A stretch of 64,000 nucleotides of DNA from Limnoperna fortunei (lineage: Eukaryota > Mollusca > Bivalvia > Mytilida > Modiolidae). The stretch covers positions 87,982,896 to 88,046,895 of the forward strand of contig OX104119.1 of NCBI GenBank assembly GCA_944474755.1. Reading direction: 5' to 3'. The position numbers and the translations under genes were made by a program. A model generated the notes under the pieces. It saw only the letters and a program-made list of their open reading frames with translations, was not told the DNA's origin and made no database searches. Of the stretch, positions 1,830 to 64,000 are shown in pieces; positions within the stretch are counted from its first letter, which is position 1, and each line of letters opens with the position of its first letter.

Positions 1830-1833
1830 AAAT
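1830..1833. repeat. AAAT direct repeat, left flank of A/B array
   Basis: AAAT directly precedes the first base of the GGTTAC terminus at 1834. The same four bases follow the last base of the GTAACC terminus at 18867. The length matches the 4-bp TATA duplication that A makes inside B, so this is read as a target-site duplication around the whole array. Confidence 0.7.
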
Positions 1834-2282
1834 GGTTACAATTGCGCAATTATTTGTTTACATGACAACGGTAAATTTTTTAACCCAAGATAGTATGCAG
1901 AAGAAAATACACGGAGGCATCTGATTGGATGTTGGAGTTCTGAAAATAGCAAAATTAAAAATTATAAACATTATTTATTGAAAATGTTCGATATTTGGAC
2001 GGAAATTTTTAAGAGCCTTGAAAATTGAGCTTAAAACGATTAAAGAGGGAGGTTAGAAATTGTGTCAGTGCCATTTAAATGTCATTATTTCAACCAAAAT
2101 TTTCGGTCATTTTTGCTGCATGACCTATACTTTTTTATTTGTTAATAATGAAGTTTTTCATTTCAATTTACACAAAAAACTGTTTTCCGGGGGGAAATTT
2201 TTGAGGTTTTTCGCACAAATGAACTTAATTGCCAGGGGTACCATATGGGAAATGCATTGTAAATAATTGCGCTTTTGTAACC
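1834..2282. mobile_element. A module copy 1 (MITE-like), left end of array
   Basis: Starts GGTTACAATTGCGCAATTA and ends in GCGCTTTTGTAACC. The two ends are inverted repeats matching at 20 of about 22 positions (GGTTACAA, two mismatches, then GCGCAATTATTT). At 449 bp with no transposase it has the form of a MITE. The left flank is AAAT (unique DNA) and the right flank is TATA (start of B). The superfamily is not assigned: a 4-bp duplication with a GGTTAC terminus fits none that I can name with confidence. Confidence 0.85.
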
Positions 2283-2286
2283 TATA

Positions 2287-3143
2287 TGGAACTGAGATTT
2301 CATCCATAATACTTGATTTATTGACCCATTTTTAATTCTAAAATTTGAATTCGTCACAGAATGTCAAGTTATGTATCAATTGTTTATTAATAACGATTTG
2401 TTAAAAAATTATAGTCTGTTTCTAAAATATAAGTATTTTTTCATAGGAAATCTAGGGTGGGCTACTATGACGAGTTTGTGCGGTCTTTTAGGTAAAAATT
2501 GGTGCTGACGTTTTTGGGGGAAATTGTTTAATACATTCAAATGCAGCGTTTGACATCAAAAACACATATTTTATGCTAGGCTTAAGTCTCTTAGCCGACT
2601 TTTTTTGTTTTGACCTCTTTTCAGCCAAATTGAATTTTTGGGGTTTTAAGCATTTTAGTATGTTGTATCCATGAATGACATCGCCTTTGTTGAATTTGAA
2701 TGCAGTTGGCTTTAATGGGACTTCTTCTGACATACGGACATAAAATAGGACTCACCAAGCATTAACATAGCTAGCTATAGTCTGTTTCAAAAATGTGGTT
2801 TTTCACAGATTCTACGAAAAATTCGTTTTCGGCCTTCAGATCTTTATTCGAGAAAAAATGTTGAAGAAGAAAGTTATCCCAGAATTGACTCGTGTACCAA
2901 ATATACAAATAACGACCGAAAACAAGTACAATAACTCGAATATTACTAAGCAGCAACACATTATTGTCGGAAAACATGATGAAAAATGCGATTAATTTTG
3001 ATAGAGGGTGGCCTCCAGAAAATTCAAACGAACCAACAACGCTTGAAGATAACTTTATTTTATTTTGGGAAACATTTGGATATTGCCTAAGGATGATACC
3101 ATAACATTTTGGGCTCATTCTGACACTTCCAATGTTGCCTATA
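2287..3143. repeat. B module 1
   Basis: 857-bp monomer running from TGGAACTGAG to GTTGCCTATA. It carries the rare variant GAACCAACAACG, shared only with B module 10; the other copies read GAACAAACAACG. A minus-strand frame of 81 codons at 2488-2733 occurs in every B copy and matches no family I recognise. A 115-codon frame (2771-3118, minus) overlaps a 66-codon plus-strand frame, so at most one of these could be coding. Confidence 0.9.
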
Positions 3144-3593
3144 GGTTACAATTGCGCAATTATTTGTTTACATGACAACGGTAAATTTTTTAACCCAAGA
3201 TAGTATGCAGAAGAAAATACACGGAGGCATCTGATTGGATGTTGGAGTTCTGAAAATAGCAAAATTAAAAATTATAAACATTATTTATTGAAAATGTTCG
3301 ATATTTGGACGGAAATTTTTAAGAGCCTTGAAAATTGAGCTTAAAACGATTAAAGAGGGAGGTTAGAAATTGTGTCAGTGCCATTTAAATGTATTTATTT
3401 CAACCAAAATTTTCGGTCATTTTTGCTGCATGACCTATACTTTTTTATTTGTTAATAATGAAGTTTTTCATTTCAATTTACACAAAAAACTGTTTTCCGG
3501 GGGGAAATTTTTGTGGTTTTTTCGCACAAATGAACTTAATTGCCAGGGGTACCATATGGGAAATGCATTGTAAATAATTGGGCTTTTGTAACC
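3144..3593. mobile_element. A module copy 2 (MITE-like)
   Basis: 450 bp, with an extra T in the run before CGCACAAATGAAC. It also has TGTATTTATTTC in place of TGTCATTATTTC and AATTGGGC near the right terminus. The same three changes occur only in copy 6 (13633-14082), so the two are sister copies. TATA flanks both sides. Confidence 0.9.
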
Positions 3594-3597
3594 TATA

Positions 3598-4454
3598 TGG
3601 AACTGAGATTTCATCCATAATACTTGATTTATTGACCCATTTTTAATTCTAAAATTTGAATTCGTCACAGAATGTCAAGTTATGTATCAATTGTTTATTA
3701 ATAACGATTTGTTAAAAAATTATAGTCTGTTTCTAAAATATAAGTATTTTTTCATAGGAAATCTAGGGTGGGCTACTATGACGAGTTTGTGCGGTCTTTT
3801 AGGTAAAAATTGGTGCTGACGTTTTTGGGGGAAATTGTTTAATACATTCAAATGCAGCGTTTGACATCAAAAACACATATTTTATGCTAGGCTTAAGTCT
3901 CTTAGCCGACTTTTTTTGTTTTGACCTCTTTTCAGCCAAATTGAATTTTTGGGGTTTTAAGCATTTTAGTATGTTGTATCCATGAATGACATCGCCTTTG
4001 TTGAATTTGAATGCAGTTGGCTTTAATGGGACTTCTTCTGACATACGGACATAAAAAAGGACTCACCAAGCATTAACATAGCTAGCTATAGTCTGTTTCA
4101 AAAATGTGGTTTTTCACAGATTCTACGAAAAATTCGTTTTCGGCCTTCAGATCTTTATTCGAGAAAAAATGTTGAAGAAGAAAGTTATCCCAGAATTGAC
4201 TCGTGTACCAAATATACAAATAACGACCGAAAACAAGTACAATAACTCGAATATTACTAAGCAGCAACACATTATTGTCGGAAAACATGATGAAAAATGC
4301 GATTAATTTTGATAGAGGGTGGCCTCCAGAAAATTCAAACGAACAAACAACGCTTGAAGATAACTTTATTTTATTTTGGGAAACATTTGGATATTGCCTA
4401 AGGATGATACCATAACATTTTGGGCTCATTCTGACACTTCCAATGTTGCCTATA
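3598..4454. repeat. B module 2
   Basis: 857 bp. Private variant: CATAAAAAAGG at about 4050, where the other copies read CATAAAATAGG. Confidence 0.9.
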
Positions 4455-4903
4455 GGTTACAATTGCGCAATTATTTGTTTACATGACAACGGTAAATTTT
4501 TTAACCCAAGATAGTATGCAGAAGAAAATACACGGAGGCATCTGATTGGATGTTGGGGTTCTGAAAATAGCAAAATTAAAAATTATAAACATTATTTATT
4601 GAAAATGTTCGATATTTGGACGGAAATTTTTAAGAGCCTTGAAAATTGAGCTTAAAACGATTAAAGAGGGAGGTTAGAAATTGTGTCAGTGCCATTTAAA
4701 TGTCATTATTTCAACCAAAATTTTCGGTCATTTTTGCTGCATGACCTATACTTTTTTATTTGTTAATAATGAAGTTTTTCATTTCATTTTACACAAAAAA
4801 CTGTTTTCCGGGGGGAAATTTTTGAGGTTTTTCGCACAAATGAACTTAATTGCCAGGGGTACCATATGGGAAATGCATTGTAAATAATTGCGCTTTTGTA
4901 ACC
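4455..4903. mobile_element. A module copy 3 (MITE-like)
   Basis: 449 bp with TATA on both flanks. It has GTTGGGGTTCT, shared with copies 4 and 5, where the others read GTTGGAGTTCT. The private variant is CATTTTACACAAA. Confidence 0.9.
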
Positions 4904-4907
4904 TATA

Positions 4908-5764
4908 TGGAACTGAGATTTCATCCATAATACTTGATTTATTGACCCATTTTTAATTCTAAAATTTGAATTCGTCACAGAATGTCAAGTTATGTATCAA
5001 TTGTTTATTAATAACGATTTGTTAAAAAATTATAGTCTGTTTCTAAAATATAAGTATTTTTTCATAGGAAATCTAGGGTGGGCTACTATGACGAGTTTGT
5101 GCGGTCTTTTAGGTAAAAATTGGCGCTGACGTTTTTGGGGGAAATTGTTTAATACATTCAAATGCAGCGTTTGACATCAAAAACACATATTTTATGCTAG
5201 GCTTAAGTCTCTTAGCCGACTTTTTTTGTTTTGACCTCTTTTCAGCCAAATTGAATTTTTGGGGTTTTAAGCATTTTAGTATGTTGTATCCATGAATGAC
5301 ATCGCCTTTGTTGAATTTGAATGCAGTTGGCTTTAATGGGACTTCTTCTGACATACGGACATAAAATAGGACTCACCAAGCATTAACATAGCTAGCTATA
5401 GTCTGTTTCAAAAATGTGGTTTTTCACAGATTCTACGAAAAATTCGTTTTCGGCCTTCAGATCTTTATTCGAGAAAAAATGTTGAAGAAGAAAGTTATCC
5501 CAGAATTGACTCGTGTACCAAATATGCAAATAACGACCGAAAACAAGTACAATAACTCGAATATTACTAAGCAGCAACACATTATTGTCGGAAAACATGA
5601 TGAAAAATGCGATTAATTTTGATAGAGGGTGGCCTCCAGAAAATTCAAACGAACAAACAACGCTTGAAGATAACTTTATTTTATTTTGGGAAACATTTGG
5701 ATATTGCCTAAGGATGATACCATAACATTTTGGGCTCATTCTGACACTTCCAATGTTGCCTATA
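4908..5764. repeat. B module 3
   Basis: 857 bp. Carries TTGGCGCTGACG and AATATGCAAA, a combination shared with modules 4 and 6. Confidence 0.9.
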
Positions 5765-6213
5765 GGTTACAATTGCGCAATTATTTGTTTACATGACAAC
5801 GGTAAATTTTTTAACCCAAGATAGTATGCAGAAGAAAATACACGGAGGCATCTGATTGGATGTTGGGGTTCTGAAAATAGCAAAATTAAAAATTATAAAC
5901 ATTATTTATTGAAAATGTTCGATATTTGGACGGAAATTTTTAAGAGCCTTGAAAATTGAGCTTAAAACGATTAAAGAGGGAGGTTAGAAATTGTGTCAGT
6001 GCCATTTAAATGTCATTATTTCAACCAGAATTTTCGGTCATTTTTGCTGCATGACCTATACTTTTTTATTTGTTAATAATGAAGTTTTTCATTTCAATTT
6101 ACACAAAAAACTGTTTTCCGGGGGGAAATTTTTGAGGTTTTTCGCACAAATGAACTTAATTGCCAGGGGTACCATATGGGAAATGCATTGTAAATAATTG
6201 CGCTTTTGTAACC
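5765..6213. mobile_element. A module copy 4 (MITE-like)
   Basis: 449 bp with TATA on both flanks. Has AACCAGAATTTT, shared with copies 5 and 8; the others read AACCAAAATTTT. Confidence 0.9.
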
Positions 6214-6217
6214 TATA

Positions 6218-7074
6218 TGGAACTGAGATTTCATCCATAATACTTGATTTATTGACCCATTTTTAATTCTAAAATTTGAATTCGTCACAGAATGTCAAGT
6301 TATGTATCAATTGTTTATTAATAACGATTTGTTAAAAAATTATAGTCTGTTTCTAAAATATAAGTATTTTTTCATAGGAAATCTAGGGTGGGCTACTATG
6401 ACGAGTTTGTGCGGTCTTTTAGGTAAAAATTGGCGCTGACGTTTTTGGGGGAAATTGTTTAATACATTCAAATGCAGCGTTTGACATCAAAAACACATAT
6501 TTTATGCTAGGCTTAAGTCTCTTAGCCGACTTTTTTTGTTTTGACCTCTTTTCAGCCAAATTGAATTTTTGGGGTTTTAAGCATTTTAGTATGTTGTATC
6601 CATGAATGACATCGCCTTTGTTGAATTTGAATGCAGTTGGCTTTAATGGGACTTCTTCTGACATACGGACATAAAATAGGACTCACCAAGCATTAACATA
6701 GCTAGCTATAGTCTGTTTCAAAAATGTGGTTTTTCACAGATTCTACGAAAAATTCGTTTTCGGCCTTCAGATCTTTATTCGAGAAAAAATGTTGAAGAAG
6801 AAAGTTATCCCAGAATTGACTCGGGTACCAAATATGCAAATAACGACCGAAAACAAGTACAATAACTCGAATATTACTAAGCAGCAACACATTATTGTCG
6901 GAAAACATGATGAAAAATGCGATTAATTTTGATAGAGGGTGGCCTCCAGAAAATTCAAACGAACAAACAACGCTTGAAGATAACTTTATTTTATTTTGGG
7001 AAACATTTGGATATTGCCTAAGGATGATACCATAACATTTTGGGCTCATTCTGACACTTCCAATGTTGCCTATA
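6218..7074. repeat. B module 4
   Basis: 857 bp with TTGGCGC and AATATGCAAA. Private change to ACTCGGGTACC at about 6822. It joins module 5 directly through GTTGCCTATATGGAAC, the empty site for A. Confidence 0.9.
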
Positions 7075-7932
7075 TGGAACTGAGATTTCATCCATAATAC
7101 TTGATTTATTGACCCATTTTTAATTCTAAAATTTGAATTCGTCACAGAATGTCAAGTTATGTATCAATTGTTTATTAATAACGATTTGTTAAAAAAATTA
7201 TAGTCTGTTTCTAAAATATAAGTATTTTTTCATAGGAAATCTAGGGTGGGCTACTATGACGAGTTTGTGCGGTCTTTTAGGTAAAAATTGGCGCTGACGT
7301 TTTTGGGGGAAATTGTTTAATACATTCAAATGCAGCGTTTGACATCAAAAACACATATTTTATGCTAGGCTTAAGTCTCTTAGCCGACTTTTTTTGTTTT
7401 GACCTCTTTTCAGCCAAATTGAATTTTTGGGGTTTTAAGCATTTTAGTATGTTGTATCCATGAATGACATCGCCTTTGTTGAATTTGAATGCAGTTGGCT
7501 TTAATGGGACTTCTTCTGACATACGGACATAAAATAGGACTCACCAAGCATTAACATAGCTAGCTATAGTCTGTTTCAAAAATGTGGTTTTTCACAGATT
7601 CTACGAAAAATTCGTTTTCGGCCTTCAGATCTTTATTCGAGAAAAAATGTTGAAGAAGAAAGTTATCCCAGAATTGACTCGTGTACCAAATATACAAATA
7701 ACGACCGAAAACAAGTACAATAACTCGAATATTACTAAGCAGCAACACATTATTGTCGGAAAACATGATGAAAAATGCGATTAATTTTGATAGAGGGTGG
7801 CCTCCAGAAAATTCAAACGAACAAACAACGCTTGAAGATAACTTTATTTTATTTTGGGAAACATTTGGATATTGCCTAAGGATGATACCATAACATTTTG
7901 GGCTCATTCTGACACTTCCAATGTTGCCTATA
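7075..7932. repeat. B module 5 (no A at left junction)
   Basis: 858 bp, with one extra A in the run after GATTTGTT. Has TTGGCGC with AATATACAAA. Its left junction is an empty A site. Confidence 0.9.
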
Positions 7933-8381
7933 GGTTACAATTGCGCAATTATTTGTTTACATGACAACGGTAAATTTTTTAACCCAAGATAGTATGCAGA
8001 AGAAAATACACGGAGGCATCTGATTGGATGTTGGGGTTCTGAAAATAGCAAAATTAAAAATTATAAACATTATTTATTGAAAATGTTCGATATTTGGACG
8101 GAAATTTTTAAGAGCCTTGAAAATTGAGCTTAAAACGATTAAAGAGGGAGGTTAGAAATTGTGTCAGTGCCATTTAAATGTCATTATTTCAACCAGAATT
8201 TTCGGTCATTTTTGCTGCATGACCTATACTTTTTTATTTGTTAATAATGAAGTTTTTCATTTCAATTTACACAAAAAACTGTTTTCCGGGGGGAAATTTT
8301 TGAGGTTTTTCGCACAAATGAACTTAATTGCCAGGGGTACCATATGGGAAATGCATTGTAAATAATTGCGCTTTTGTAACC
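7933..8381. mobile_element. A module copy 5 (MITE-like)
   Basis: 449 bp with TATA on both flanks. Shares GTTGGGGTTCT with copies 3 and 4, and AACCAGAATTTT with copies 4 and 8. Confidence 0.9.
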
Positions 8382-8385
8382 TATA

Positions 8386-9242
8386 TGGAACTGAGATTTC
8401 ATCCATAATACTTGATTTATTGACCCATTTTTAATTCTAAAATTTGAATTCGTCACAGAATGTCAAGTTATGTATCAATTGTTTATTAATAACGATTTGT
8501 TAAAAAATTATAGTCTGTTTCTAAAATATAAGTATTTTTTCATAGGAAATCTAGGGTGGGCTACTATGACGAGTTTGTGCGGTCTTTTAGGTAAAAATTG
8601 GCGCTGACGTTTTTGGGGGAAATTGTTTAATACATTCAAATGCAGCGTTTGACATCAAAAACACATATTTTATGCTAGGCTTAAGTCTCTTAGCCGACTT
8701 TTTTTGTTTTGACCTCTTTTCAGCCAAATTGAATTTTTGGGGTTTTAAGCATTTTAGTATGTTGTATCCATGAATGACATCGCCTTTGTTGAATTTGAAT
8801 GCAGTTGGCTTTAATGGGACTTCTTCTGACATACGGACATAAAATAGGACTCACCAAGCATTAACATAGCTAGCTATAGTCTGTTTCAAAAATGTGGTTT
8901 TTCACAGATTCTACGAAAAATTCGTTTTCGGCCTTCAGATCTTTATTCGAGAAAAAATGTTGAAGAAGAAAGTTATCCCAGAATTGACTCGTGTACCAAA
9001 TATGCAAATAACGACCGAAAACAAGTACAATAACTCGAATATTACTAAGCAGCAACACATTATTGTCGGAAAACATGATGAAAAATGCGATTAATTTTGA
9101 TAGAGGGTGGCCTCCAGAAAATTCAAACGAACAAACAACGCTTGAAGATAACTTTATTTTATTTTGGGAAACATTTGGATATTGCCTAAGGATGATACCA
9201 TAACATTTTGGGCTCATTCTGACACTTCCAATGTTGCCTATA
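8386..9242. repeat. B module 6
   Basis: 857 bp with TTGGCGC and AATATGCAAA. Its right junction is an empty A site. Confidence 0.9.
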
Positions 9243-10099
9243 TGGAACTGAGATTTCATCCATAATACTTGATTTATTGACCCATTTTTAATTCTAAAAT
9301 TTGAATTCGTCACAGAATGTCAAGTTATGTATCAATTGTTTATTAATAACGATTTGTTAAAAAATTATAGTCTGTTTCTAAAATATAAGTATTTTTTCAT
9401 AGGAAATCTAGGGTGAGCTACTATGACGAGTTTGTGCGGTCTTTTAGGTAAAAATTGGTGCTGACGTTTTTGGGGGAAATTGTTTAATACATTCAAATGC
9501 AGCGTTTGACATCAAAAACACATATTTTATGCTAGGCTTAAGTCTCTTAGCCGACTTTTTTTGTTTTGACCTCTTTTCAGCCAAATTGAATTTTTGGGGT
9601 TTTAAGCATTTTAGTATGTTGTATCCATGAATGACATCGCCTTTGTTGAATTTGAATGCAGTTGGCTTTAATGGGACTTCTTCTGACATACGGACATAAA
9701 ATAGGACTCACCAAGCATTAACATAGCTAGCTATAGTCTGTTTCAAAAATGTGGTTTTTCACAGATTCTACGAAAAATTCGTTTTCGGCCTTCAGATCTT
9801 TATTCGAGAAAAAATGTTGAAGAAGAAAGTTATCCCAGAATTGACTCGTGTACCAAATATGCAAATAACGACCGAAAACAAGTACAATAACTCGAATATT
9901 ACTAAGCAGCAACACATTATTGTCGGAAAACATGATGAAAAATGCGATTAATTTTGATAGAGGGTGGCCTCCAGAAAATTCAAACGAACAAACAACGCTT
10001 GAAGATAACTTTATTTTATTTTGGGAAACATTTGGATATTGCCTAAGGATGATACCATAACATTTTGGGCTCATTCTGACACTTCCAATGTTGCCTATA
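9243..10099. repeat. B module 7 (empty A site on both sides)
   Basis: 857 bp. Has AGGGTGAGCTA (shared with module 13) and the mixed combination TTGGTGC with AATATGCAAA, so it looks recombinant. Confidence 0.9.
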
Positions 10100-10915
10100 T
10101 GGAACTGAGATTTCATCCATAATACTTGATTTATTGACCCATTTTTAATTCTAAAATTTGAATTCGTCACAGAATGTCAAGTTATGTATCAATTGTTTAT
10201 TAATAACGATTTGTTAAAAAATTATAGTCTGTTTCTAAAATATAAGTATTTTTTCATAGGAAATCTACGGTGGGCTACTATGACGAGTTTGTGCGGTCTT
10301 TTAGGTAAAAATTGGCGCTGACGTTTTTGGGGGAAATTGTTTAATACATTCAAATGCAGCGTTTGACATCAAAAACACATATTTTATGCTAGGCTTAAGT
10401 CTCTTAGCCGACTTTTTTTGTTTTGACCTCTTTTCAGCCAAATTGAATTTTTGGGGTTTTAAGCATTTTAGTATGTTGTATCCATGAATGACATCGCCTT
10501 TGTTGAATTTGAATGCAGTTGGCTTTAATGGGACTTCTTCTGACATACGGACATAAAATAGGACTCACCAAGCATTAACATAGCTAGCTATAGTCTGTTT
10601 CAAAAATGTGGTTTTTCACAGATTCTACGAAAAATTCGTTTTCGGCCTTCAGATCTTTATTCGAGAAAAAATGTTGAAGAAGAAAGTTATCCCAGAATTG
10701 ACTCGTGTACCAAATATACAAATAACGACCGAAAACAAGTACAATAACTCGAATATTACTAAGCAGCAACACATTATTGTCGGAAAACATGATGAAAAAT
10801 GCGATTAATTTTGATAGAGGGTGGCCTCCAGAAAATTCAAACGAACAAACAACGCTTGAAGATAACTTTATTATACCCCCGCTCGACAGAGTCGGGGGTA
10901 TATAGTGGTCCTCAT

Positions 10916-10988
10916 GTCCGTCCGTCCGTCCGTCCGTCCGTCCGTCCGTCTGTCCGTCCGTCCGTCCGTCCGTCCGTTCGTCCGTCCA
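10916..10988. repeat. TCCG microsatellite in the Helentron-like element
   Basis: About 18 units of TCCG with two interruptions (TCTG and TTCG). It lies between the 5' subterminal repeats and the 161-bp tandem repeats. Confidence 0.95.
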
Positions 10989-11790
10989 CATTTGGTTTCC
11001 GGATGATAATTCAAAAAGTTTACATCCGATTTGAATGAAACTTTGGGATATTGTTATATATCAGGTTGGTAAGAAGCCTATTGATTTTGGGGGAAATCCG
11101 TCAAATTTCAAGGTCACAGTCCACGAAAAACGTTAGAAATTTTAACAAAAAAGTTGTTTCCGGACAATAACTCAAAAAGTTTACATCCGATTTAAATGAA
11201 ACTTTGGGATATTGTCACATATCAGGTTGGTAAGAAGCCTATCGATTTTGGGGGAAATCCGTCAAATTTCAAGGTCACAGTCCACGAAAAACGTTAGAAA
11301 TTTTAACATAAAAGTTGTTTCCGGACAATAACTCAAAAAGTTTGCATCCGATTTGAATGAAACTTTGGGATATTGTTATATATCAGGTTGGTAAGAAGCC
11401 TATTGATTCTGGGGGAAATCCGTCAAATTTCAAGGTCACAGTCCACGTAAAACGTTAGAAATTTTAACAAAAAAGTTGTTTCCGGACAATAACTCAAAAA
11501 GTTTACATCCGATTTGAATGAAACTTTGGGATATTGTCATATATCAGGTTGGTAAGAAGCCTATCGATTTTGGGGGAAATCCGTCAAATTTCAAGGTCAC
11601 AGTCCACGAAAAACGTTAGAAATTTTAACATAAAAGTTGTTTCCGGACAATAACTCAAAAAGTTTGCATCCGATTTGAATGAAACTTTGGGATATTGTTA
11701 TATATCAGGTTGGTAAAAAGCCTTTTGATTTTGGGGGAAATCCATCAAATTTCAAGGTCGCAGTCCACGAAAAACGTTAGAAATTTTCAC
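10989..11790. repeat. 161-bp tandem repeat, five copies
   Basis: The landmark CTTTGGGATATTGT lies at 11041, 11202, 11363, 11524 and 11685, an exact 161-bp period. Copies differ by a few substitutions. They form the core of the Helentron-like element; the last copy runs into the 3' terminal GCGGGGGTAT. Confidence 0.95.
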
Positions 11791-11918
11791 AAAAGCGGGG
11801 GTATCAGCGATCGCTAGATCGACTTTGTCTAGTTTTATTTTGGGAAACATTTGGATATTGCCTAAGGATGATACCATAACATTTTGGGCTCATTCTGACA
11901 CTTCCAATGTTGCCTATA

Positions 11919-12775
11919 TGGAACTGAGATTTCATCCATAATACTTGATTTATTGACCCATTTTTAATTCTAAAATTTGAATTCGTCACAGAATGTCAAG
12001 TTATGTATCAATTGTTTATTAATAACGATTTGTTAAAAAATTATAGTCTGTTTCTAAAATATAAGTATTTTTTCATAGGAAATCTAGGGTGGGCTACTAT
12101 GACGAGTTTGTGCGGTCTTTTAGGTAAAAATTGGTGCTGACGTTTTTGGGGGAAATTGTTTAATACATTCAAATGCAGCGTTTGACATCAAAAACACATA
12201 TTTTATGCTAGGCTTAAGTCTCTTAGCCGACTTTTTTTGTTTTGACCTCTTTTCAGCCAAATTGAATTTTTGGGGTTTTAAGCATTTTAGTATGTTGTAT
12301 CCATGAATGACATCGCCTTTGTTGAATTTGAATGCAGTTGGCTTTAATGGGACTTCTTCTGACATACGGACATAAAATAGGACTCACCAAGCATTAACAT
12401 AGCTAGCTATAGTCTGTTTCAAAAATGTGGTTTTTCACAGATTCTACGAAAAATTCGTTTTCGGCCTTCAGATCTTTATTCGAGAAAAAATGTTGAAGAA
12501 GAAAGTTATCCCAGAATTGACTCGTGTACCAAATATACAAATAACGACCGAAAACAAGTACAATAACTCGAATATTACTAAGCAGCAACACATTATTGTC
12601 GGAAAACATGATGAAAAATGCGATTAATTTTGATAGAGGGTGGCCTCCAGAAAATTCAAACGAACAAACAACGCTTGAAGATAACTTTATTTTATTTTGG
12701 GAAACATTTGGATATTGCCTAAGGATGATACCATAACATTTTGGGCTCATTCTGACACTTCCAATGTTGCCTATA
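11919..12775. repeat. B module 9 (empty A site on both sides)
   Basis: 857 bp with TTGGTGC and AATATACAAA. Close to the array consensus. Confidence 0.9.
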
Positions 12776-13632
12776 TGGAACTGAGATTTCATCCATAATA
12801 CTTGATTTATTGACCCATTTTTAATTCTAAAATTTGAATTCGTCACAGAATGTCAAGTTATGTATCAATTGTTTATTAATAACGATTTGTTAAAAAATTA
12901 TAGTCTGTTTCTAAAATATAAGTATTTTTTCATAGGAAATCTAGGGTGGGCTACTATAACGAGTTTGTGCGGTCTTTTAGGTAAAAATTGGTGCTGACGT
13001 TTTTGGGGGAAATTGTTTAATACATTCAAATGCAGCGTTTGACATCAAAAACACATATTTTATGCTAGGCTTAAGTCTCTTAGCCGACTTTTTTTGTTTT
13101 GACCTCTTTTCAGCCAAATAGAATTTTTGGGGTTTTAAGCATTTTAGTATGTTGTATCCATGAATGACATCGCCTTTGTTGAATTTGAATGCAGTTGGCT
13201 TTAATGGGACTTCTTCTGACATACGGACATAAAATAGGACTCACCAAGCATTAACATAGCTAGCTATAGTCTGTTTCAAAAATGTGGTTTTTCACAGATT
13301 CTACGAAAAATTCGTTTTCGGCCTTTAGATCTTTATTCGAGAAAAAATGTTGAAGAAGAAAGTTATCCCAGAATTGACTCGTGTACCAAATATACAAATA
13401 ACGACCGAAAACAAGTACAATAACTCGAATATTACTAAGCAGCAACACATTATTGTCGGAAAACATGATGAAAAATGCGATTAATTTTGATAGAGGGTGG
13501 CCTCCAGAAAATTCAAACGAACCAACAACGCTTGAAGATAACTTTATTTTATTTTGGGAAACATTTGGATATTGCCTAAGGATGATACCATAACATTTTG
13601 GGCTCATTCTGACACTTCCAATGTTGCCTATA
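12776..13632. repeat. B module 10
   Basis: 857 bp. Shares GAACCAACAACG with module 1. Private changes include ACTATAACGAG, GCCAAATAGAATT and GCCTTTAGATC. The 81-codon minus-strand frame has its only amino-acid change among all copies here (Asn to Tyr). Confidence 0.9.
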
Positions 13633-14082
13633 GGTTACAATTGCGCAATTATTTGTTTACATGACAACGGTAAATTTTTTAACCCAAGATAGTATGCAGA
13701 AGAAAATACACGGAGGCATCTGATTGGATGTTGGAGTTCTGAAAATAGCAAAATTAAAAATTATAAACATTATTTATTGAAAATGTTCGATATTTGGACG
13801 GAAATTTTTAAGAGCCTTGAAAATTGAGCTTAAAACGATTAAAGAGGGAGGTTAGAAATTGTGTCAGTGCCATTTAAATGTATTTATTTCAACCAAAATT
13901 TTCGGTCATTTTTGCTGCATGACCTATACTTTTTTATTTGTTAATAATGAAGTTTTTCATTTCAATTTACACAAAAAACTGTTTTCCGGGGGGAAATTTT
14001 TGAGGTTTTTTCGCACAAATGAACTTAATTGCCAGGGGTACCATATGGGAAATGCATTGTAAATAATTGGGCTTTTGTAACC
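13633..14082. mobile_element. A module copy 6 (MITE-like)
   Basis: 450 bp, sister to copy 2, with the same extra T, TGTATTTATTTC and AATTGGGC. Together B10-A6 mirrors B1-A2, offset by about 10,489 bp. Confidence 0.9.
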
Positions 14083-14086
14083 TATA

Positions 14087-14943
14087 TGGAACTGAGATTT
14101 CATCCATAATACTTGATTTATTGACCCATTTTTAATTCTAAAATTTGAATTCGTCACAGAATGTCAAGTTATGTATCAATTGTTTATTAATAACGATTTG
14201 TTAAAAAATTATAGTCTGTTTCTAAAATATAAGTATTTTTTCATAGGAAATCTAGGGTGGGCTACTATGACGAGTTTGTGCGGTCTTTTAGGTAAAAATT
14301 GGTGCTGACGTTTTTGGGGGAAATTGTTTAATACATTCAAATGCAGCGTTTGACATCAAAAACACATATTTTATGCTAGGCTTAAGTCTCTTAGCCGACT
14401 TTTTTTGTTTTGACCTCTTTTCAGCCAAATTGAATTTTTGGGGTTTTAAGCATTTTAGTATGTTGTATCCATGAATGACATCGCCTTTGTTGAATTTGAA
14501 TGCAGTTGGCTTTAATGGGACTTCTTCTGACATACGGACATAAAATAGGACTCACCAAGCATTAACATAGCTAGCTATAGTCTGTTTCAAAAATGTGGTT
14601 TTTCACAGATTCTACGAAAAATTCGTTTTCGGCCTTCAGATCTTTATTCGAGAAAAAATGTTGAAGAGGAAAGTTATCCCAGAATTGACTCGTGTACCAA
14701 ATATACAAATAACGACCGAAAACAAGTACAATAACTCGAATATTACTAAGCAGCAACACATTTTTGTCGGAAAACATGATGAAAAATGCGATTAATTTTG
14801 ATAGAGGGTGGCCTCCAGAAAATTCAAACGAACAAACAACGCTTGAAGATAACTTTATTTTATTTTGTGAAACATTTGGATATTGCCTAAGGATGATACC
14901 ATAACATTTTGGGCTCATTCTGACACTTCCAATGTTGCCTATA
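14087..14943. repeat. B module 11
   Basis: 857 bp. Private changes GAAGAGGAAAG, CATTTTTGTCGG and TTTTGTGAAAC make it the most diverged of the B copies. Right junction is an empty A site. Confidence 0.9.
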
Positions 14944-15798
14944 TGGAACTGAGATTTCATCCATAATACTTGATTTATTGACCCATTTTTAATTCTAAAA
15001 TTTGAATTCGTCACAGAATGTCAAGTTATGTATCAATTGTTTATTAATAACGATTTGTTAAAAAATTATAGTCTGTTTCTAAAATATAAGTATTTTTTCA
15101 TAGGAAATCTAGGGTGGGCTACTATGACGAGTTTGTGCGGTCTTTTAGGTAAAAATTGGTGCTGACGTTTTTGGGGGAAATTGTTTAATACATTCAAATG
15201 CAGCGTTTGACATCAAAAACACATATTTTATGCTAGGCTTAAGTCTCTTAGCCGACTTTTTTTGTTTTGACCTCTTTTCAGCCAAATTGAATTTTTGGGG
15301 TTTTAAGCATTTTAGTATGTTGTATCCATGAATGACATCGCCTTTGTTGAATTTGAATGCAGTTGGCTTTAATGGGACTTCTTCTGACATACGGACATAA
15401 AATAGGACTCACCAAGCATTAACATAGCTAGCTATAGTCTGTTTCAAAAATGTGGTTTTTCACAGATTCTACGAAAAATTCGTTTTCGGCCTTCAGATCT
15501 TTATTCGAGAAAAAATGTTGAAGAAGAAAGTTATCCCAGAATTGACTCGTGTACCAAATATACAAATAACGACCGAAAACAAGTACAATAACTCGAATAT
15601 TACTAAGCAGCAACACATTATTGTCGGAAAACATGATGAAAAATGCGATTAATTTTGATAGAGGGTGGCCTCCAGAAAATTCAAACGAACAAACAACGCT
15701 TGAAGATAACTTTATTTTATTTTGGGAAACATTTGGATATTGCCTAAGGATGATACCATAACATTTTGGGCTCATTCTGACACTTCCAATGTTGCCTA
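14944..15798. repeat. B module 12
   Basis: 855 bp. Its right end reads GTTGCCTA instead of GTTGCCTATA before A copy 7, so two bases of the TATA duplication are lost at that junction. Confidence 0.9.
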
Positions 15799-16247
15799 GG
15801 TTACAATTGCGCAATTATTTGTTTACATGACAACGGTAAATTTTTTAACCCAAGATAGTATGCAGAAGAAAATACACGGAGGCATCTGATTGGATGTTGG
15901 AGTTCTGAAAATAGCAAAATTAAAAATTATAAACATTATTTATTGAAAATGTTCGATATTTGGACGGAAATTTTTAAGAGCCTTGAAAATTGAGCTTAAA
16001 ACGATTAAAGAGGGAGGTTAGAAATTGTGTCAGTGCCATTTAAATGTCATTATTTCAACCAAAATTTTCGGTCATTTTTGCTGCATGACCTATACTTTTT
16101 TATTTGTTAATAATGAAGTTTTTCATTTCAATTTACACAAAAAACTGTTTTCCGGGGGGAAATTTTTGAGGTTTTTCGCACAAATGAACTTAATTGCTAG
16201 GGGTACCATATGGGAAATGCATTGTAAATAATTGCGCTTTTGTAACC
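15799..16247. mobile_element. A module copy 7 (MITE-like)
   Basis: 449 bp. The left flank keeps only TA of the duplication; the right flank is TATA. Private change AATTGCTAGGGG at about 16197. Confidence 0.9.
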
Positions 16248-16251
16248 TATA

Positions 16252-17108
16252 TGGAACTGAGATTTCATCCATAATACTTGATTTATTGACCCATTTTTAA
16301 TTCTAAAATTTGAATTCGTCACAGAATGTCAAGTTATGTATCAATTGTTTATTAATAACGATTTGTTAAAAAATTATAGTCTGTTTCTAAAATATAAGTA
16401 TTTTTTCATAGGAAATCTAGGGTGAGCTACTATGACGAGTTTGTGCGGTCTTTTAGGTAAAAATTGGTGCTGACGTTTTTGGGGGAAATTGTTTAATACA
16501 TTCAAATGCAGCGTTTGACATCAAAAACACATATTTTATGCTAGGCTTAAGTCTCTTAGCCGACTTTTTTTGTTTTGACCTCTTTTCAGCCAAATTGAAT
16601 TTTTGGGGTTTTAAGCATTTTAGTATGTTGTATCCATGAATGACATCGCCTTTGTTGAATTTGAATGCAGTTGGCTTTAATGGGACTTCTTCTGACATAC
16701 GGACATAAAATAGGACTCACCAAGCATTAACATAGCTAGCTATAGTCTGTTTCAAAAATGTGGTTTTTCACAGATTCTACGAAAAATTCGTTTTCGGCCT
16801 TCAGATCTTTATTCGAGAAAAAATGTTGAAGAAGAAAGTTATCCCAGAATTGACTTGTGTACCAAATATACAAATAACGACCGAAAACAAGTACAATAAC
16901 TCGAATATTACTAAGCAGCAACACATTATTGTCGGAAAACATGATGAAAAATGCGATTAATTTTGATAGAGGGTGGCCTCCAGAAAATTCAAACGAACAA
17001 ACAACGCTTGAAGATAACTTTATTTTATTTTGGGAAACATTTGGATATTGCCTAAGGATGATACCATAACATTTTGGGCTCATTCTGACACTTCCAATGT
17101 TGCCTATA
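16252..17108. repeat. B module 13
   Basis: 857 bp. Shares AGGGTGAGCTA with module 7. Private change GACTTGTGTACC, where other copies read GACTCGTGTACC. Confidence 0.9.
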
Positions 17109-17557
17109 GGTTACAATTGCGCAATTATTTGTTTACATGACAACGGTAAATTTTTTAACCCATGATAGAATGCAGAAGAAAATACACGGAGGCATCTGAT
17201 TGGATGTTGGAGTTCTGAAAATAGCAAAATTAAAAATTATAAACATTATTTATTGAAAATGTTCGATATTTGGACGGAAATTTTTAAGAGCCTTGAAAAT
17301 TGAGCTTAAAACGATTAAAGAGGGAGGTTAGAAATTGTGTCAGTGCCATTTAAATGTCATTATTTCAACCAGAATTTTCGGTCATTTTTGCTGCATGACC
17401 TATACTTTTTTATTTGTTAATAATGAAGTTTTTCATTTCAATTTACACAAAAAACTGTTTTCCGGGGGGAAATTTTTGAGGTTTTTCGCACAAATGAACT
17501 TAATTGCCAGGGGTACCATATGGGAAATGCATTGTAAATAATTGCGCTTTTGTAACC
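17109..17557. mobile_element. A module copy 8 (MITE-like)
   Basis: 449 bp with TATA on both flanks. Has AACCAGAATTTT like copies 4 and 5, and a private CCCATGATAGAATG near the left end. Confidence 0.9.
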
Positions 17558-17561
17558 TATA

Positions 17562-18418
17562 TGGAACTGAGATTTCATCCATAATACTTGATTTATTGAC
17601 CCATTTTTAATTCTAAAATTTGAATTCGTCACAGAATGTCAAGTTATGTATCAATTGTTTATTAATAACGATTTGTTAAAAAATTATAGTCTGTTTCTAA
17701 AATATAAGTATTTTTTCATAGGAAATCTAGGGTGGGCTACTATGACGAGTTTGTGCGGTCTTTTAGGTAAAAATTGGTGCTGACGTTTTTGGGGGAAATT
17801 GTTTAATACATTCAAATGCAGCGTTTGACATCAAAAACACATATTTTATGCTAGGCTTAAGTCTCTTAGCCGACTTTTTTTGTTTTGACCTCTTTTCAGC
17901 CAAATTGAATTTTTGGGGTTTTAAGCATTTTAGTATGTTGTATCCATGAATGACATCACCTTTGTTGAATTTGAATGCAGTTGGCTTTAATGGGACTTCT
18001 TCTGACATACGGACATAAAATAGGACTCACCAAGCATTAACATAGCTAGCTATAGTCTGTTTCAAAAATGTGGTTTTTCACAGATTCTACGAAAAATTCG
18101 TTTTCGGCCTTCAGATCTTTATTCGAGAAAAAATGTTGAAGAAGAAAGTTATCCCAGAATTGACTCGTGTACCAAATATACAAATAACGACCGAAAACAA
18201 GTACAATAACTCGAATATTACTAAGCAGCAACACATTATTGTCGGAAAACATGATGAAAAATGCGATTAATTTTGATAGAGGGTGGCCTCCAGAAAATTC
18301 AAACGAACAAACAACGCTTGAAGATAACTTTATTTTATTTTGGGAAACATTTGGATATTGCCTAAGGATGATACCATAACATTTTGGGCTCATTCTGACA
18401 CTTCCAATGTTGCCTATA
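17562..18418. repeat. B module 14
   Basis: 857 bp. Private change GACATCACCTTTG at about 17953. Last B of the array. Confidence 0.9.
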
Positions 18419-18867
18419 GGTTACAATTGCGCAATTATTTGTTTACATGACAACGGTAAATTTTTTAACCGAACATAGTATGCAGAAGAAAATACACGGA
18501 GGCATCTGATTGGATGTTGGAGTTCTGAAAATAGCAAAATTAAAAATTATAAACATTATTTATTGAAAATGTTCGATATTTGGACGGAAATTTTTAAGAG
18601 CCTTGAAAATTGAGCTTAAAACGATTAAAGAGGGAGGTTAGAAATTGTGTCAGTGCCATTTAAATGTCATTATTTCAACCAAAATTTTCGGTCATTTTTG
18701 CTGCATGACCTATACTTTTTTATTTGTTAATAATGAAGTTTTTCATTTCAATTTACACAAAAAACTGTTTTCCGGGGGGAAATTTTTGAGGTTTTTCGCA
18801 CAAATGAACTTAATTGCCAGGGGTACCATATGGGAAATGCATTGTAAATAATTGCGCTTTTGTAACC
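18419..18867. mobile_element. A module copy 9 (MITE-like), right end of array
   Basis: Complete 449-bp copy with TATA on the left. On the right its GTAACC terminus abuts AAAT and then unrelated DNA. Private change AACCGAACATAG near the left end, where others read AACCCAAGATAG. No B sequence follows. Confidence 0.9.
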
Positions 18868-18871
18868 AAAT
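18868..18871. repeat. AAAT direct repeat, right flank of A/B array
   Basis: Matches AAAT at 1830-1833. It differs from the TATA that flanks every internal A copy, so the array as a whole sits at a separate target site. Confidence 0.7.
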
Positions 18872-19280: not shown

Positions 19281-19515
19281 AAACCGGCCGGTACCAACTC
19301 TGTCCTTTTGATGTCATATAACTGCTGAATAGAAAAATATGCAGTAATCGACCGTCACACAACTCTGTCATTGTGATGTCATATATATACTGAACAATGC
19401 AAAAAAAAGGTCTAAATCGACCGGTACCCAATGTTGTCCTTATAATGTCATATGTCTACTGAACAGGAAAATAGGTCTAAATCGACCGGTACCCAACTCT
19501 GTCCATATGATTTCA
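19281..19515. repeat. 65-69-bp tandem repeat, four copies
   Basis: The core, close to CGACCGGTACCCAACTCTGTCC followed by a GATGTCATAT-like stretch and ACTGAACA, recurs with CAACTCT or CAATGTT at 19295, 19360, 19429 and 19494. Copies are clearly diverged. The fourth is cut off after TTTCATATATA, where the Tc1-like element begins, so the transposon apparently landed in this repeat. I do not find the repeat resuming on the other side. Confidence 0.8.
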
Positions 19516-19520
19516 TATAT

Positions 19521-19548
19521 ACTCACTCTAAAAAAAAAACGCAACATA
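19521..19548. repeat. Left terminal inverted repeat of Tc1-like element
   Basis: ACTCACTCT, then an A run, then CGCAACAT. Pairs with 20873-20900 with a few mismatches and one length difference in the A run. Confidence 0.8.
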
Positions 19549-19678
19549 CAGAAAAAAAATGGGAATTTTACTTCATATACTTTTTTAACAATTTATTTAT
19601 ACAAAAATGTAAAAATTGGCACACTTCATGTTCATGAGTACTTTTACCATGTCAGTATCTGTTGTGTCCACCATTTGC

Positions 19679-20569
19679 TTATAAAACAGCCCTTATTCTT
19701 CTTTGCATGGATTCAATTAAACGTTGAAAACGAACACGCGGTATCCTTTGCCACTCATAATGAAGTGCCGGCTCTAATTGTTGCAGATTTTGCGGCGGTG
19801 GTTGTCGTTGGCGCACACGCCGATCCAGTTCATCCCACAGATGTTCAATTGGGTTAAGATGCGGAGATAGTTATGGCCAACGGATCATATTGACATTCTA
19901 TTCTGTTACTCTAAAAAATCTACGTGCTGTATTTGGTCAGACATTGAAAGTTAAGATTTCCTTGGATATGTATCAGCTGTGTGTTCCTGACGTAAGAGAT
20001 AGCGGCCCAATCATAACACTGCCTCCACCAAAATTGATCTTTTTACAACACAGTTTTGCGCAAAACGTTCATTTCGGTGCCTGTACACTCGTATGCGACC
20101 ATCTCGCTTTTCAAGCTGAAAACGTGACTCATCGCTGAACCACACTCTTCTCCAGTCCTATAAATTCCAATAGTACACCATCTAACCCTTGCTCGGCGGT
20201 GTTGGCGTATTATTGTTGCTCCGATGTAAAGTCTTTTTGTCGGCAAGCCATGAGAGCGTAACCGATTTCTTACTGTCTGTGGTGATAGAGGGCGCAACAC
20301 AGGGACGTTTACAGCTGTTTCCGTTGCAGCGATAGTCATATATTCCGTAGATTGAATAATCTAATTTAGCGATCCTGCGCCCGAGCTGTAACACGCGGAC
20401 GCCCTTAACGTAGTCAGTGTGTCGCAGTACCAAGCAGCTGGTAACGTCTCCAAAGGCGTGAAATTGTGCTACGATGAACATTGTTTTTTCTGGCAACAGC
20501 ATTCTGTGATTCCCCGGCCTCGATTCGACCGATAGCGATATTCCGGGTAGCAACATCTAACCTTCTCAT
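19679..20569 (-). pseudogene. Tc1-like transposase, inactivated
   Basis: Translation on the minus strand from the ATG at 20569 gives MRRLDVATRNIAIGRIEAG, a typical Tc1 paired-like N terminus. In another frame LSPQTVRNRLRSHGL and RQHRRARVRW follow, the second helix-turn-helix. FSDESRF, with the first catalytic Asp, is at about 20120-20140. Near the 3' end are LNPIEHLWDELDRRV (third catalytic residue, the Glu, kept) and RLIESMQRRIRAVL before the stop at 19679. The gene is dead: an in-frame stop after TATH, further stops after RAQDR and LRNI, several frame changes, and loss of the segment that normally carries the second catalytic Asp. The span is about 297 codons against roughly 340 in intact relatives, consistent with internal deletions. 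Confidence 0.9.
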
Positions 20570-20872
20570 AGCGTCACCTCATCAGAATTTTATTTTACTA
20601 ATTCAGTCAAGAAAAGAAATAGCGGGGTTTTATAACGGTTGTCGGAGTAAAAAAAAAATACCCTAGTTTGTCACGTGAAAGTCGACCATGTTTTAGCTAT
20701 GCGTAATTCATAGTGTGTTCCAGATTTCGACCACAATCGTTTAGGGGTAAATGAACTTGAATGCTTTTACCTGGAAACATTTAATTAAGGCGTATTTATG
20801 ATGTTGTGTATATATATTTTTGAATATGTATAGGTTATTTGTCCGCAAAAAATTATTTGAAAAAAATTTATC

Positions 20873-20900
20873 CGATGTTGCATTTTGTTTTTGAGTGAGT
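20873..20900. repeat. Right terminal inverted repeat of Tc1-like element
   Basis: On the plus strand it reads ATGTTGCATTTTG then TTTTTGAGTGAGT, the inverse of the left terminus. Confidence 0.8.
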
Positions 20901-21078
20901 ATATATGGGACGTCAGAGAGATCTCCATAAGCAAAATAGTGGAATTTGCGACACAGGCCAGAATCACCACATTTCAAAATCTCCCGATGTAAAAAAAATT
21001 GCATGTCATTAAATGTCTACATATGTAGTATTGGTAGATATATGTTTCAGTATATCCGCCTCATTCCTCGTGAAATAT

Positions 21079-23618: not shown

Positions 23619-23629
23619 TTGGGCCTCGG

Positions 23630-23640
23630 TGGCCGAGTGG
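23630..23640 (+). promoter_or_regulatory. SINE internal Pol III A box
   Basis: TGGCCGAGTGG fits the tRNA A-box pattern TRGYNNANNNG. Its location near the SINE head is as expected. Confidence 0.75.
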
Positions 23641-23685
23641 TTAAGGTAGTTCGTCTACTATTAGTCTGTCAACACTGAGGTTATG

Positions 23686-23696
23686 GGTCCGAGTCT
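23686..23696 (+). promoter_or_regulatory. SINE internal Pol III B box
   Basis: GGTCCGAGTCT against the consensus GGTTCGANTCC, with three differences. It lies 56 bp after the A box start, a normal tRNA-like spacing. Confidence 0.7.
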
Positions 23697-23878
23697 GACT
23701 GCGGGCGGGAAGGTACAGTCGACTCCAATCTTAATTGACAAGAATTGCCAGTTTTCCTACCGAAGGTCCGGGTTTTCTCCTTGCGCTCCGGCTTACTCCC
23801 CTAATACACACTGGACGCCATGATATAGCTGAAAAATTTCTGAAAGTGGTGTTCAACACCAATAAAAAAAATCAGACA

Positions 23879-63429: not shown

Positions 63430-64000
63430 GTTCAGTCTTGGTGTTGCATATGTATATCCCGGAGAGTTCAGTCTTGGTGTTGCATATGTATATCCCGGAG
63501 AGTTCAGTCTTGGTGTTGTCTGTGTATATCCCGGAGAGTTCAGTCGTGGTGTTGTCTATGTATATCCCGCAGAGTTCAGTCTTGGTGTTGTATATGTATA
63601 TCCCGCAGAGTTCAGTCTTGGTGTTGTCTGTGTATATCCCGGAGAGTTCAGTCTTGGTGTTGTCTGTGTATATCCGGGAGAGTTCTGTCTTGGTGTTGCA
63701 TATGTATATCCCGGAGAGTTCAGTCTTGATGTCATCTGTGTATATCCCGCAGAATTCAGTCTTGTTGTTGCATATGTATATCCGGGAGAGTTCAGTCTTG
63801 GTGTTGTCTGTGTATATCCCGGAGAGTTCAGTCTTGGTGTTGCATATGTATATCCCGCAGAGTTCAGTCTTGGTGTTGCATATGTATATCCCGGAGAGTT
63901 CAGTCTTGGTGTAGCATAAGTATATCCCGGAGAGTTCAGTCTTGGTGTTGTCTGTGTATATCCCGGAGAGTTCAGTCTTGGTGTTGCATATGTATATCCC

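Follow-up and report, generated by a model that had tools for sequence, protein, structure and literature searches.

A satellite array bounded by MITE-like elements in Limnoperna fortunei: one locus of a dispersed family that may move as a macrotransposon

Results

We analysed a stretch of 64,000 nucleotides from the bivalve Limnoperna fortunei (assembly GCA_944474755.1, contig OX104119.1, C9:87982896-88046895; hereafter the window), in which a head-to-tail array of two modules, named A and B, occupies positions 1834-18867. The results favoured, on balance, the interpretation that this array belongs, as one locus among many, to a dispersed mobile family without coding capacity, the basic unit of which, A-B-A, would behave as a DNA macrotransposon that expands into satellite arrays.

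Structure of the array in the window

The array contained 9 A and 14 B copies, all in one orientation, in the order A B A B A B A BB A BBBBB A BB A B A B A. Its left edge was the A terminus GGTTAC (1834) and its right edge the A terminus GTAACC (ending at 18867), with the tetranucleotide AAAT directly outside both edges (1830-1833 and 18868-18871). The first-pass annotation of this DNA had reported these edges and repeats, and our reading of the termini and flanks bore this out. The probability that two tetramers drawn from the actual flanks of the window match by chance was p = 0.0051. AAAT surrounds the outermost ends of two complete A copies, the inner ends of which are at TATA (A1, AAAT/TATA; A9, TATA/AAAT), as in a macrotransposon.

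The annotation had also described the layout as A-(B/A)n with internal A copies flanked by TATA. The alternation of A and B was confirmed, with the correction that six junctions join B to B without an A. TATA was found on the right of A at 8/8 A-to-B junctions and on the left in 7/8 of the A copies that follow B, the exception being A7 (15799), which is preceded by TA only. All six B-B junctions read GCC-TATA-TGG, with a single TATA. The presence of TATA on both sides of A, and of a single TATA in the B-B junctions, gives A the appearance of an element inserted into B at TATA, with the B-B junctions resembling the empty site. The features of the array were as follows.

1830-1833, no strand assigned: target duplication AAAT, left copy (flank reading)
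1834-2282, plus strand: A1, outer left A, flanks AAAT/TATA
2283-3143, plus strand: B1, 857 bp and TATA
3144-3593, plus strand: A2
3594-4454, plus strand: B2
4455-4903, plus strand: A3
4904-5764, plus strand: B3
5765-6213, plus strand: A4
6214-7932, plus strand: B4-B5, A-less junction at 7071 with a single TATA
7933-8381, plus strand: A5
8382-13632, plus strand: B6-B7-B8-B9-B10, four A-less junctions (9239, 10096, 11915 and 12772)
10873-11832, no strand assigned: nested insert in B8, about 960 bp
13633-14082, plus strand: A6
14083-15798, plus strand: B11-B12, A-less junction at 14940, only TA before A7
15799-16247, plus strand: A7
16248-17108, plus strand: B13
17109-17557, plus strand: A8
17558-18418, plus strand: B14
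18419-18867, plus strand: A9, outer right A, flanks TATA/AAAT
18868-18871, no strand assigned: target duplication AAAT, right copy (flank reading)

The A copies of the window differed from their consensus at 0 to 5 columns (each at least 98.9% alike), and the B copies at 0 to 4 positions when the TATA ends and the B8 insert were set aside (each at least 99.5% alike). The pairs B1-A2 and B10-A6 (A2 at 3144, A6 at 13633), which lie 10.5 kb apart, had five variants in common, a probable sign of conversion or exchange within the array. An inverted repeat of 7 bp that spans AAAT had suggested a hairpin-shaped target; the idea was dropped, since inverted repeats of this length occur at 7.2% of background positions and longer ones at about 1%.

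Elements A and B

Element A is 449-450 bp long and has terminal inverted repeats of 22 bp, matching at 20 of the 22 positions. The termini GGTTAC..GTAACC (GGTTACAANNGCGCAATTATTT) were found in the window and in the array copies listed; left A ends elsewhere in the genome were selected by the GGTTAC-side word itself. No stop-to-stop frame of at least 70 codons lay wholly inside any A copy of the window. With its terminal inverted repeats, the 4-bp duplication around its solo copies and its lack of coding capacity, A has the properties of a miniature inverted-repeat transposable element (MITE). The long head-to-tail arrays of near-identical, locally homogenised monomers are at the same time those of a satellite.

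Element B is 857 bp long (about 861 bp with TATA) and starts with TATATGGAACTGAG. The DNA analysed contained no tRNA gene with which this start could be compared as a primer binding site. The possibility that B is a gene was rejected, the longest frame (minus strand) ranging from 94 to 149 codons among ten B copies and the frames of three B copies giving no Pfam match above the cut-off. The search of Rfam gave nothing at gathering scores, and no match was found in plasmid records (blastn) or in viral and prokaryote contigs (exact words).

The 4.2-kb locus C3:27761413-27765650 was examined as a possible autonomous partner of A and was discarded: it proved to be an A interrupted by a nested insert, and the 3.8 kb that were read contained no long frame. 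An old relative of A was found at L059 (C4:33283572-33284122), which has 30 bp in common with A at the terminus and weak similarity inside; it may provide a lead to a wider A family.

The insert in B8 (10873-11832) is composed of a GTCC microsatellite, five 161-bp repeats and a palindromic end, a layout that resembles HINE/pearl elements (non-autonomous Helentrons) as they are described in the available part of PMC7492417. Since it is present in B8 alone, it would be either younger than the growth of the array or a sequence that was never amplified.

A-bounded blocks elsewhere in the genome

The genome searched comprised 1.335 Gb in 285 contigs. The A-bounded blocks are a non-random sample, found through A ends or B hits and then read at both edges. 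The first nine loci, the window included, came from the best BLAST hits (the best 40 of 1525 candidates scored), and further blocks came from B hits (the best 40 of 1079 candidates scored) and from left A edges without a preceding A. This last pattern occurred at 71 places and at none in the reversed control; 8 of these 71 edges fell in loci read before, and of the others 44 were read over 551 bp, 5 over 46 bp and 14 were unread. The right edges of C3:66096860, the C15 array, L052, L055, L056, L057, L063, L068, L070, L073 and L116 were unread. The left flanks used for C6:57344370 and C4:51696668 were CTATAT and TCATAG, respectively.

An exact duplication of 4-5 bp, proper to each block, surrounded 26 of the 29 A-bounded blocks with both outer edges read, and 23 of the 26 whose inside was read or begins A-B. 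Fifteen different words were duplicated, ATAT five times and AAAT three times. The blocks are found at dozens of places in the genome and range from the minimal A-B-A of 1.76 kb to 41.5 kb. The genome search for other A-bounded arrays with their own duplications, which the first-pass annotation had suggested, was thus positive. The idea of a macrotransposon that uses the outermost A termini was supported in kind; the idea that the whole satellite was moved in a single transposition was not, since the small A-B-A occurs dispersed in its own right, with duplication of its target. The presence of A-bounded blocks at many loci, most with a duplication of their own, shows that there was more than a single event.

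Matching flanks were found at 7 of the first nine loci (AAAT, AGAT, TTTA, TTAT, TGTA, TATT and the 5-bp TAACA), a result with a probability by chance of about 2e-14. The eight further loci derived from BLAST all began and ended with A. Four of them consisted of A-B-A alone (1758-1760 bp in three cases and 2104 bp in C5b, where one A has a small insert), and the other four were A(BA)3, A(BA)4, A(BA)12 and a block of 39 kb with as many as 14 consecutive B copies. The blocks derived from B hits with both edges read were duplicated in 3/3 cases (C13 ATAT, C12 TGTA and C6 ATAT), and those derived from right ends had matching flanks in 9/9 cases, including blocks of 41.5 kb (ATGT) and 22.2 kb (ATAT), the inside of three of these nine being unread. 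For the blocks of 41.5, 22.2, 10.7 and 8.5 kb, the sequence read comprised only the two edges and a part close to the left end.

Among 40 left-edge A loci read with 551 bp, 22 ran directly into B and 9 were solo A copies with an exact 4-bp duplication; the remainder were 4 solo A copies with a duplication absent or unclear and 5 truncated, interrupted or otherwise rearranged copies. Of four more left-edge loci, one was a solo A that lacked a duplication, one an A-B locus and two were truncated A copies. Further reading of 20 of the 22 left-anchored A-B loci gave 8 minimal A-B-A, 8 A-B-A-B, 2 A-B-B and 2 unreadable loci, and exact duplications were found at 7 of the 8 minimal units, the exception being L061. 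When solo or interrupted A copies with both edges read were considered, 11 of 17 (two solo by size only) had an exact 4-bp duplication and 6 were without one or unclear. The duplicated tetramers were AT-rich and mostly NTAT-like, a pattern that TATA fits, with the last letter biased in that the search pattern excluded A.

Two further arrangements were noted. At C6:61760031-61768437, a 7.95-kb insertion splits the last A of an A(BA)4 block, with 7 bp of A common to both sides; the TTTA duplication of this block is still intact. At L035 (C15:3677000-3682500), a higher-order repeat A-B-B' was found, in which B' starts with TATATGC instead of TATATGG.

Variants shared within loci

The A copies were compared in 84 rows, in which C5b was represented by one aligned A copy and from which L059 and L115 were left out as too diverged. 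At five of the eight loci compared, all aligned A copies carried a common variant that is rare or absent elsewhere. The variants 397C of C5a (6 of 20 A sampled), 372C of C2a (4 of 13 sampled), 292T of C2b (4/4) and 280C of C8a (2/2) were private among the 84 rows. In the window, a thymine at position 39 (39T) was present in 9/9 A copies, the outermost included, and otherwise only in the solo A L065 and the truncated A L117. The variant 143T was rejected as private to the window, being common in the family (31/84 rows); position 143 was G in 49 rows, T in 31, A in 2 and a gap in 2, and there are perhaps two A subfamilies.

Comparison of 26 within-locus A pairs showed that 14 were strictly closest to each other, 9 were tied with another locus and 3 were not closest, the second A standing in for the end A at L040, L048, L055-L058, L062 and L066. 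The most different pair (14 differences) was that of L061, which has no matching flanks and looks recombinant.

The A of the window differed from that of C1a at 2 of 449 positions, and from those of C13, C12, C6d and C3 at 5, 8, 5 and 6 of 449. The B of the window differed from that of C1a at 39 of 858 positions and from those of C13, C12, C6d and C3 at 9 of 440, 11 of 434, 12 of 526 and 18 of 858, respectively. When the loci were compared with C1a, the divergence of A was significantly below that of B at the window, C8a, C2b, C5b and C5a, and the difference was not significant at C2a, C6a and C9b; this test counted locus-shared A variants only. It seems that recombination or conversion brought a modern A into older B lineages, or that A is under constraint.

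Comparison with known systems

The statement of the first-pass annotation that no named family has this design was too strong, given the layout of biv-TRIM and the logic of the maize Ac macrotransposons, as far as the available parts of the papers cited below describe them. The biv-TRIM elements have terminal direct repeats (TDRs) of 202-218 bp, an inner domain of 77-80 bp, the polypurine tract GGGGAGA, a conserved 14-mer (TGATCCCAAAGGAC) and no clear primer binding site (PBS), and they occur as solo TDRs and as arrays TDRx_I(x-1), up to TDR58_I57 with 16.6 kb (PMC6934838). The family described here is like them in its terminal direct repeats around a short non-coding inner domain, its solo repeats and its arrays that start and end in the terminal repeat, and differs from them in the size of its modules (449 bp and about 861 bp), its 22-bp inverted termini, its A-less B-B junctions and the TATA on the inner sides of A. 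Both GGGGAGA and TGATCCCAAAGGAC were absent from the two strands of A-B-A. The A-B-A unit is not a biv-TRIM.

The Ac macrotransposons of maize, of 10 and 28 kb, are excised and reinserted with 8-bp duplications and carry gene or enhancer cargo of the p1/p2 region in several lines (PMC9910405). There, as is proposed here, a pair of neighbouring element ends functions as one transposon, which takes along whatever lies between them. The duplications of the present family are of 4 bp, the cargo is a satellite and the loci are dispersed by the dozens in one genome. In the tandem CMITE arrays of corals, which are made of TTAA piggyBac-type elements of about 100 bp, similar spacers were taken as growth by slippage (PMC2872659). 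Full-length MITEs in tandem, and in one CMITE array spacers between the elements, recall our arrays; a duplication at the outer ends of whole arrays is not reported in the part of that source available.

The tandem LTR (long terminal repeat) retrotransposons of plants are coding, and the examples described are two units that share the inner LTR (PMC11899658). They resemble our blocks in the alternation of terminal repeats and insides within one outer target duplication, and differ from them in that the latter are non-coding and reach a dozen or more units. In Xstir and miDNA4 of Xenopus, tandem repeats are inside one MITE or derived from its inside, according to the available part of a review (PMC12628747). 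A MITE is associated with expanding tandem repeats in these cases too, whereas complete MITEs bracket and punctuate an unrelated monomer in the present family. Our literature search, which covered titles and abstract openings with subscription journals largely outside it, gave no satellite bounded by MITEs with one outer target duplication, and the novelty of the family is proposed tentatively.

Proposed origin of the arrays

We propose that A, a MITE-like element mobile alone, would at some time have been inserted in a B tandem at a TATA site. A DNA-type transposase acting in trans would then use the left end of one A together with the right end of a second, as if they bounded one transposon, so that A-B-A or a longer A-(B/A)n-A could move and duplicate 4 bp at each new target (AAAT in the window). 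The direct repeats, 449 and 857 bp long, would favour unequal exchange, by which the block would be expanded and homogenised either after its insertion or shortly before it, in the donor; this would explain why arrays keep A at both ends and are homogeneous within loci and different between them. The A-less B-B junctions would be older B tandems or sites of exact A departure. The 17-kb length of the array can be the result of later growth instead of movement of the whole block.

The arrival of satellite monomers on new chromosomes is an old open question, for which circles, gene conversion and transposons have all been proposed. One genome offers here a series of solo A, A-B-A, A(BA)2 and blocks of 5-41 kb, mostly with an intact insertion scar, on which a model of transposon dispersal with subsequent growth of the array can be tested at individual loci.

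Several observations weigh against this proposal. A free B tandem, the presumed origin of the family, was not found, nor was an autonomous partner of A, for which one candidate was examined. The search for B apart from A used exact words, which miss variants such as TATATGGAACCG and arrays cut at random within B; it showed B rarely beside another sequence than A or B, which speaks for the proposal, with 3 places in the genome where the 3' end of B is followed by the base A or C instead of by the first base of A or B, and 4 places where the 5' end of B is without the preceding C of both normal contexts, these 4 matches being perhaps partly due to chance, given the 20 matches of the same pattern in the reversed control. 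One of the four was inside an A-bounded block (C2:47766290) and one was about 2 kb from a truncated A. The check for arrays that end in B, which the annotation had set against its own proposal, gave none among the 29 blocks, found through A ends or B hits, random ends inside B not having been searched genome-wide; it also gave one counter-example in kind, L064 (C6:1015985-1016535), in which an A truncated at base 354 is joined to an inverted B.

The three blocks without duplication were all of the type xxxx/TATA (C2a, TACT/TATA; C8a, TAAT/TATA; L061, TACT/TATA). The solo A L051 likewise has TATA, the first four bases of B, on the right and another word on the left, as at C2:84098576, C8:50519528 and L061; an array end was perhaps lost by exchange at TATA. 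At C9b, there was no shared variant and the two A copies differed by 3, and the A copies of C6a and C1a were identical to the consensus and thus uninformative. The histories of A and B, as traced by nucleotide differences, are in disagreement, the A of the window being nearest to that of C1a and its B nearer to those of the other four loci. The sister A pairs of the minimal A-B-A units are the weak point, as plain composite cut-and-paste does not itself yield sisters; a homogenised donor array or a copying step (circle, concatemer or reverse transcription) is therefore needed. It is conceivable, though unlikely, that the satellite family travels and is renewed as a composite transposon with arrays bounded by the same MITE, one A giving rise at each insertion to both sister ends by way of a circle, a concatemer or another replicative step of a DNA transposase, and that arrays of up to 41 kb are delivered whole or grown on site. 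If this is true, a DNA transposon would have arrived at a life cycle like that of LTR elements.

Other explanations of the arrays

Reverse transcription would template both A copies from one, and within-locus pairs often share substitutions, as would be expected if A-B-A were a retrotransposon of the type of a terminal-repeat retrotransposon in miniature (TRIM) or a large retrotransposon derivative (LARD), with A as the long terminal repeat, B as the inner domain and arrays formed by recombination between repeats. The terminal direct repeats, the 4-5-bp duplications, the solo A copies and the A(BA)n arrays all fit such an element, and at L061 the most different A pair coincides with the lack of matching flanks, as in recombinant LTR elements. 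We nevertheless judged this origin improbable. A ends in GG..CC, whereas TG..CA is the rule for LTR ends, and inverted termini of 22 bp are long for LTRs. No polypurine tract precedes the 3' repeat: in the final 60 bases of B, purine runs reach 5 at most, against a mean of 5.6 for B (the longest pyrimidine run in its first 60 bases was also 5). An insertion into B would account for TATA on the inner sides of A and a single TATA in the B-B junctions, which for LTRs would be coincidental; A and B diverge unequally, and we know of no LTR process that yields A-less B-B junctions. In favour of a retrotransposon, the bivalve biv-TRIM forms comparable arrays, occurs as solo TDRs and has no identifiable PBS (PMC6934838); its motifs, however, are absent from our unit.

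The sister A pairs and the variants common within loci, together with the frequent multimers among the 20 left-anchored loci read further, would also be explained if the moving form were a circle with one A and B or a rolling-circle concatemer, inserted by replicative strand transfer at A or by transposition from the concatemer so as to leave A-B-A or A(BA)n. No circular DNA was observed, and the only elements known to us to insert by such replicative strand transfer are bacterial, IS26 among them; we regard this form of movement as decidedly unlikely. The first-pass annotation had proposed, as its second reading, that a B/A circle recombined into a solo A at AAAT; this docking of a circle or array, followed by growth, appeared very unlikely. 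One crossover in A would leave exactly AAAT-A-TATA...TATA-A-AAAT, solo A copies with 4-bp duplications exist as sites, at least L065 among them carries 39T, and the discordant histories of A and B show that the modules reassort. However, A1 and A9 carry the rare 39T like the inner A copies, so that, wherever the crossover lay, the solo A must have shared 39T or been converted, and docking is for this reason moderately disfavoured for the window. A-B-A is also too common to need it, 22 of the 40 left-edge A loci running into B and 13 being solo or nearly complete A. Finally, an accidental outer match at the ends of an ordinary satellite that happens to end in A is compatible with the p value of 0.005 for a single 4-bp match; it is refuted by the duplications of the other blocks and can hardly be maintained. 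We therefore retained the macrotransposon as the favoured origin.

Other features of the window

A Tc1-like element with 34-bp inverted repeats (19514-19547 and 20875-20907) was found at 19514-20907; its transposase is decayed, with a match to HTH_Tnp_Tc3_2 (E 5.1e-05) that is below the Pfam cut-off. A 63-bp minisatellite of 12.7 copies occupies positions 438-1236, and an inverted pair of a 72%-identical repeat (55-277 and 23628-23853) lies on either side of the array region. A 36-bp minisatellite (about 1094 copies, 88% matches) extends over at least 39 kb, from 24634 to the end of the window at 64000. Since only about 117 kb separate the end of the window from that of contig C9, the region is possibly subtelomeric.

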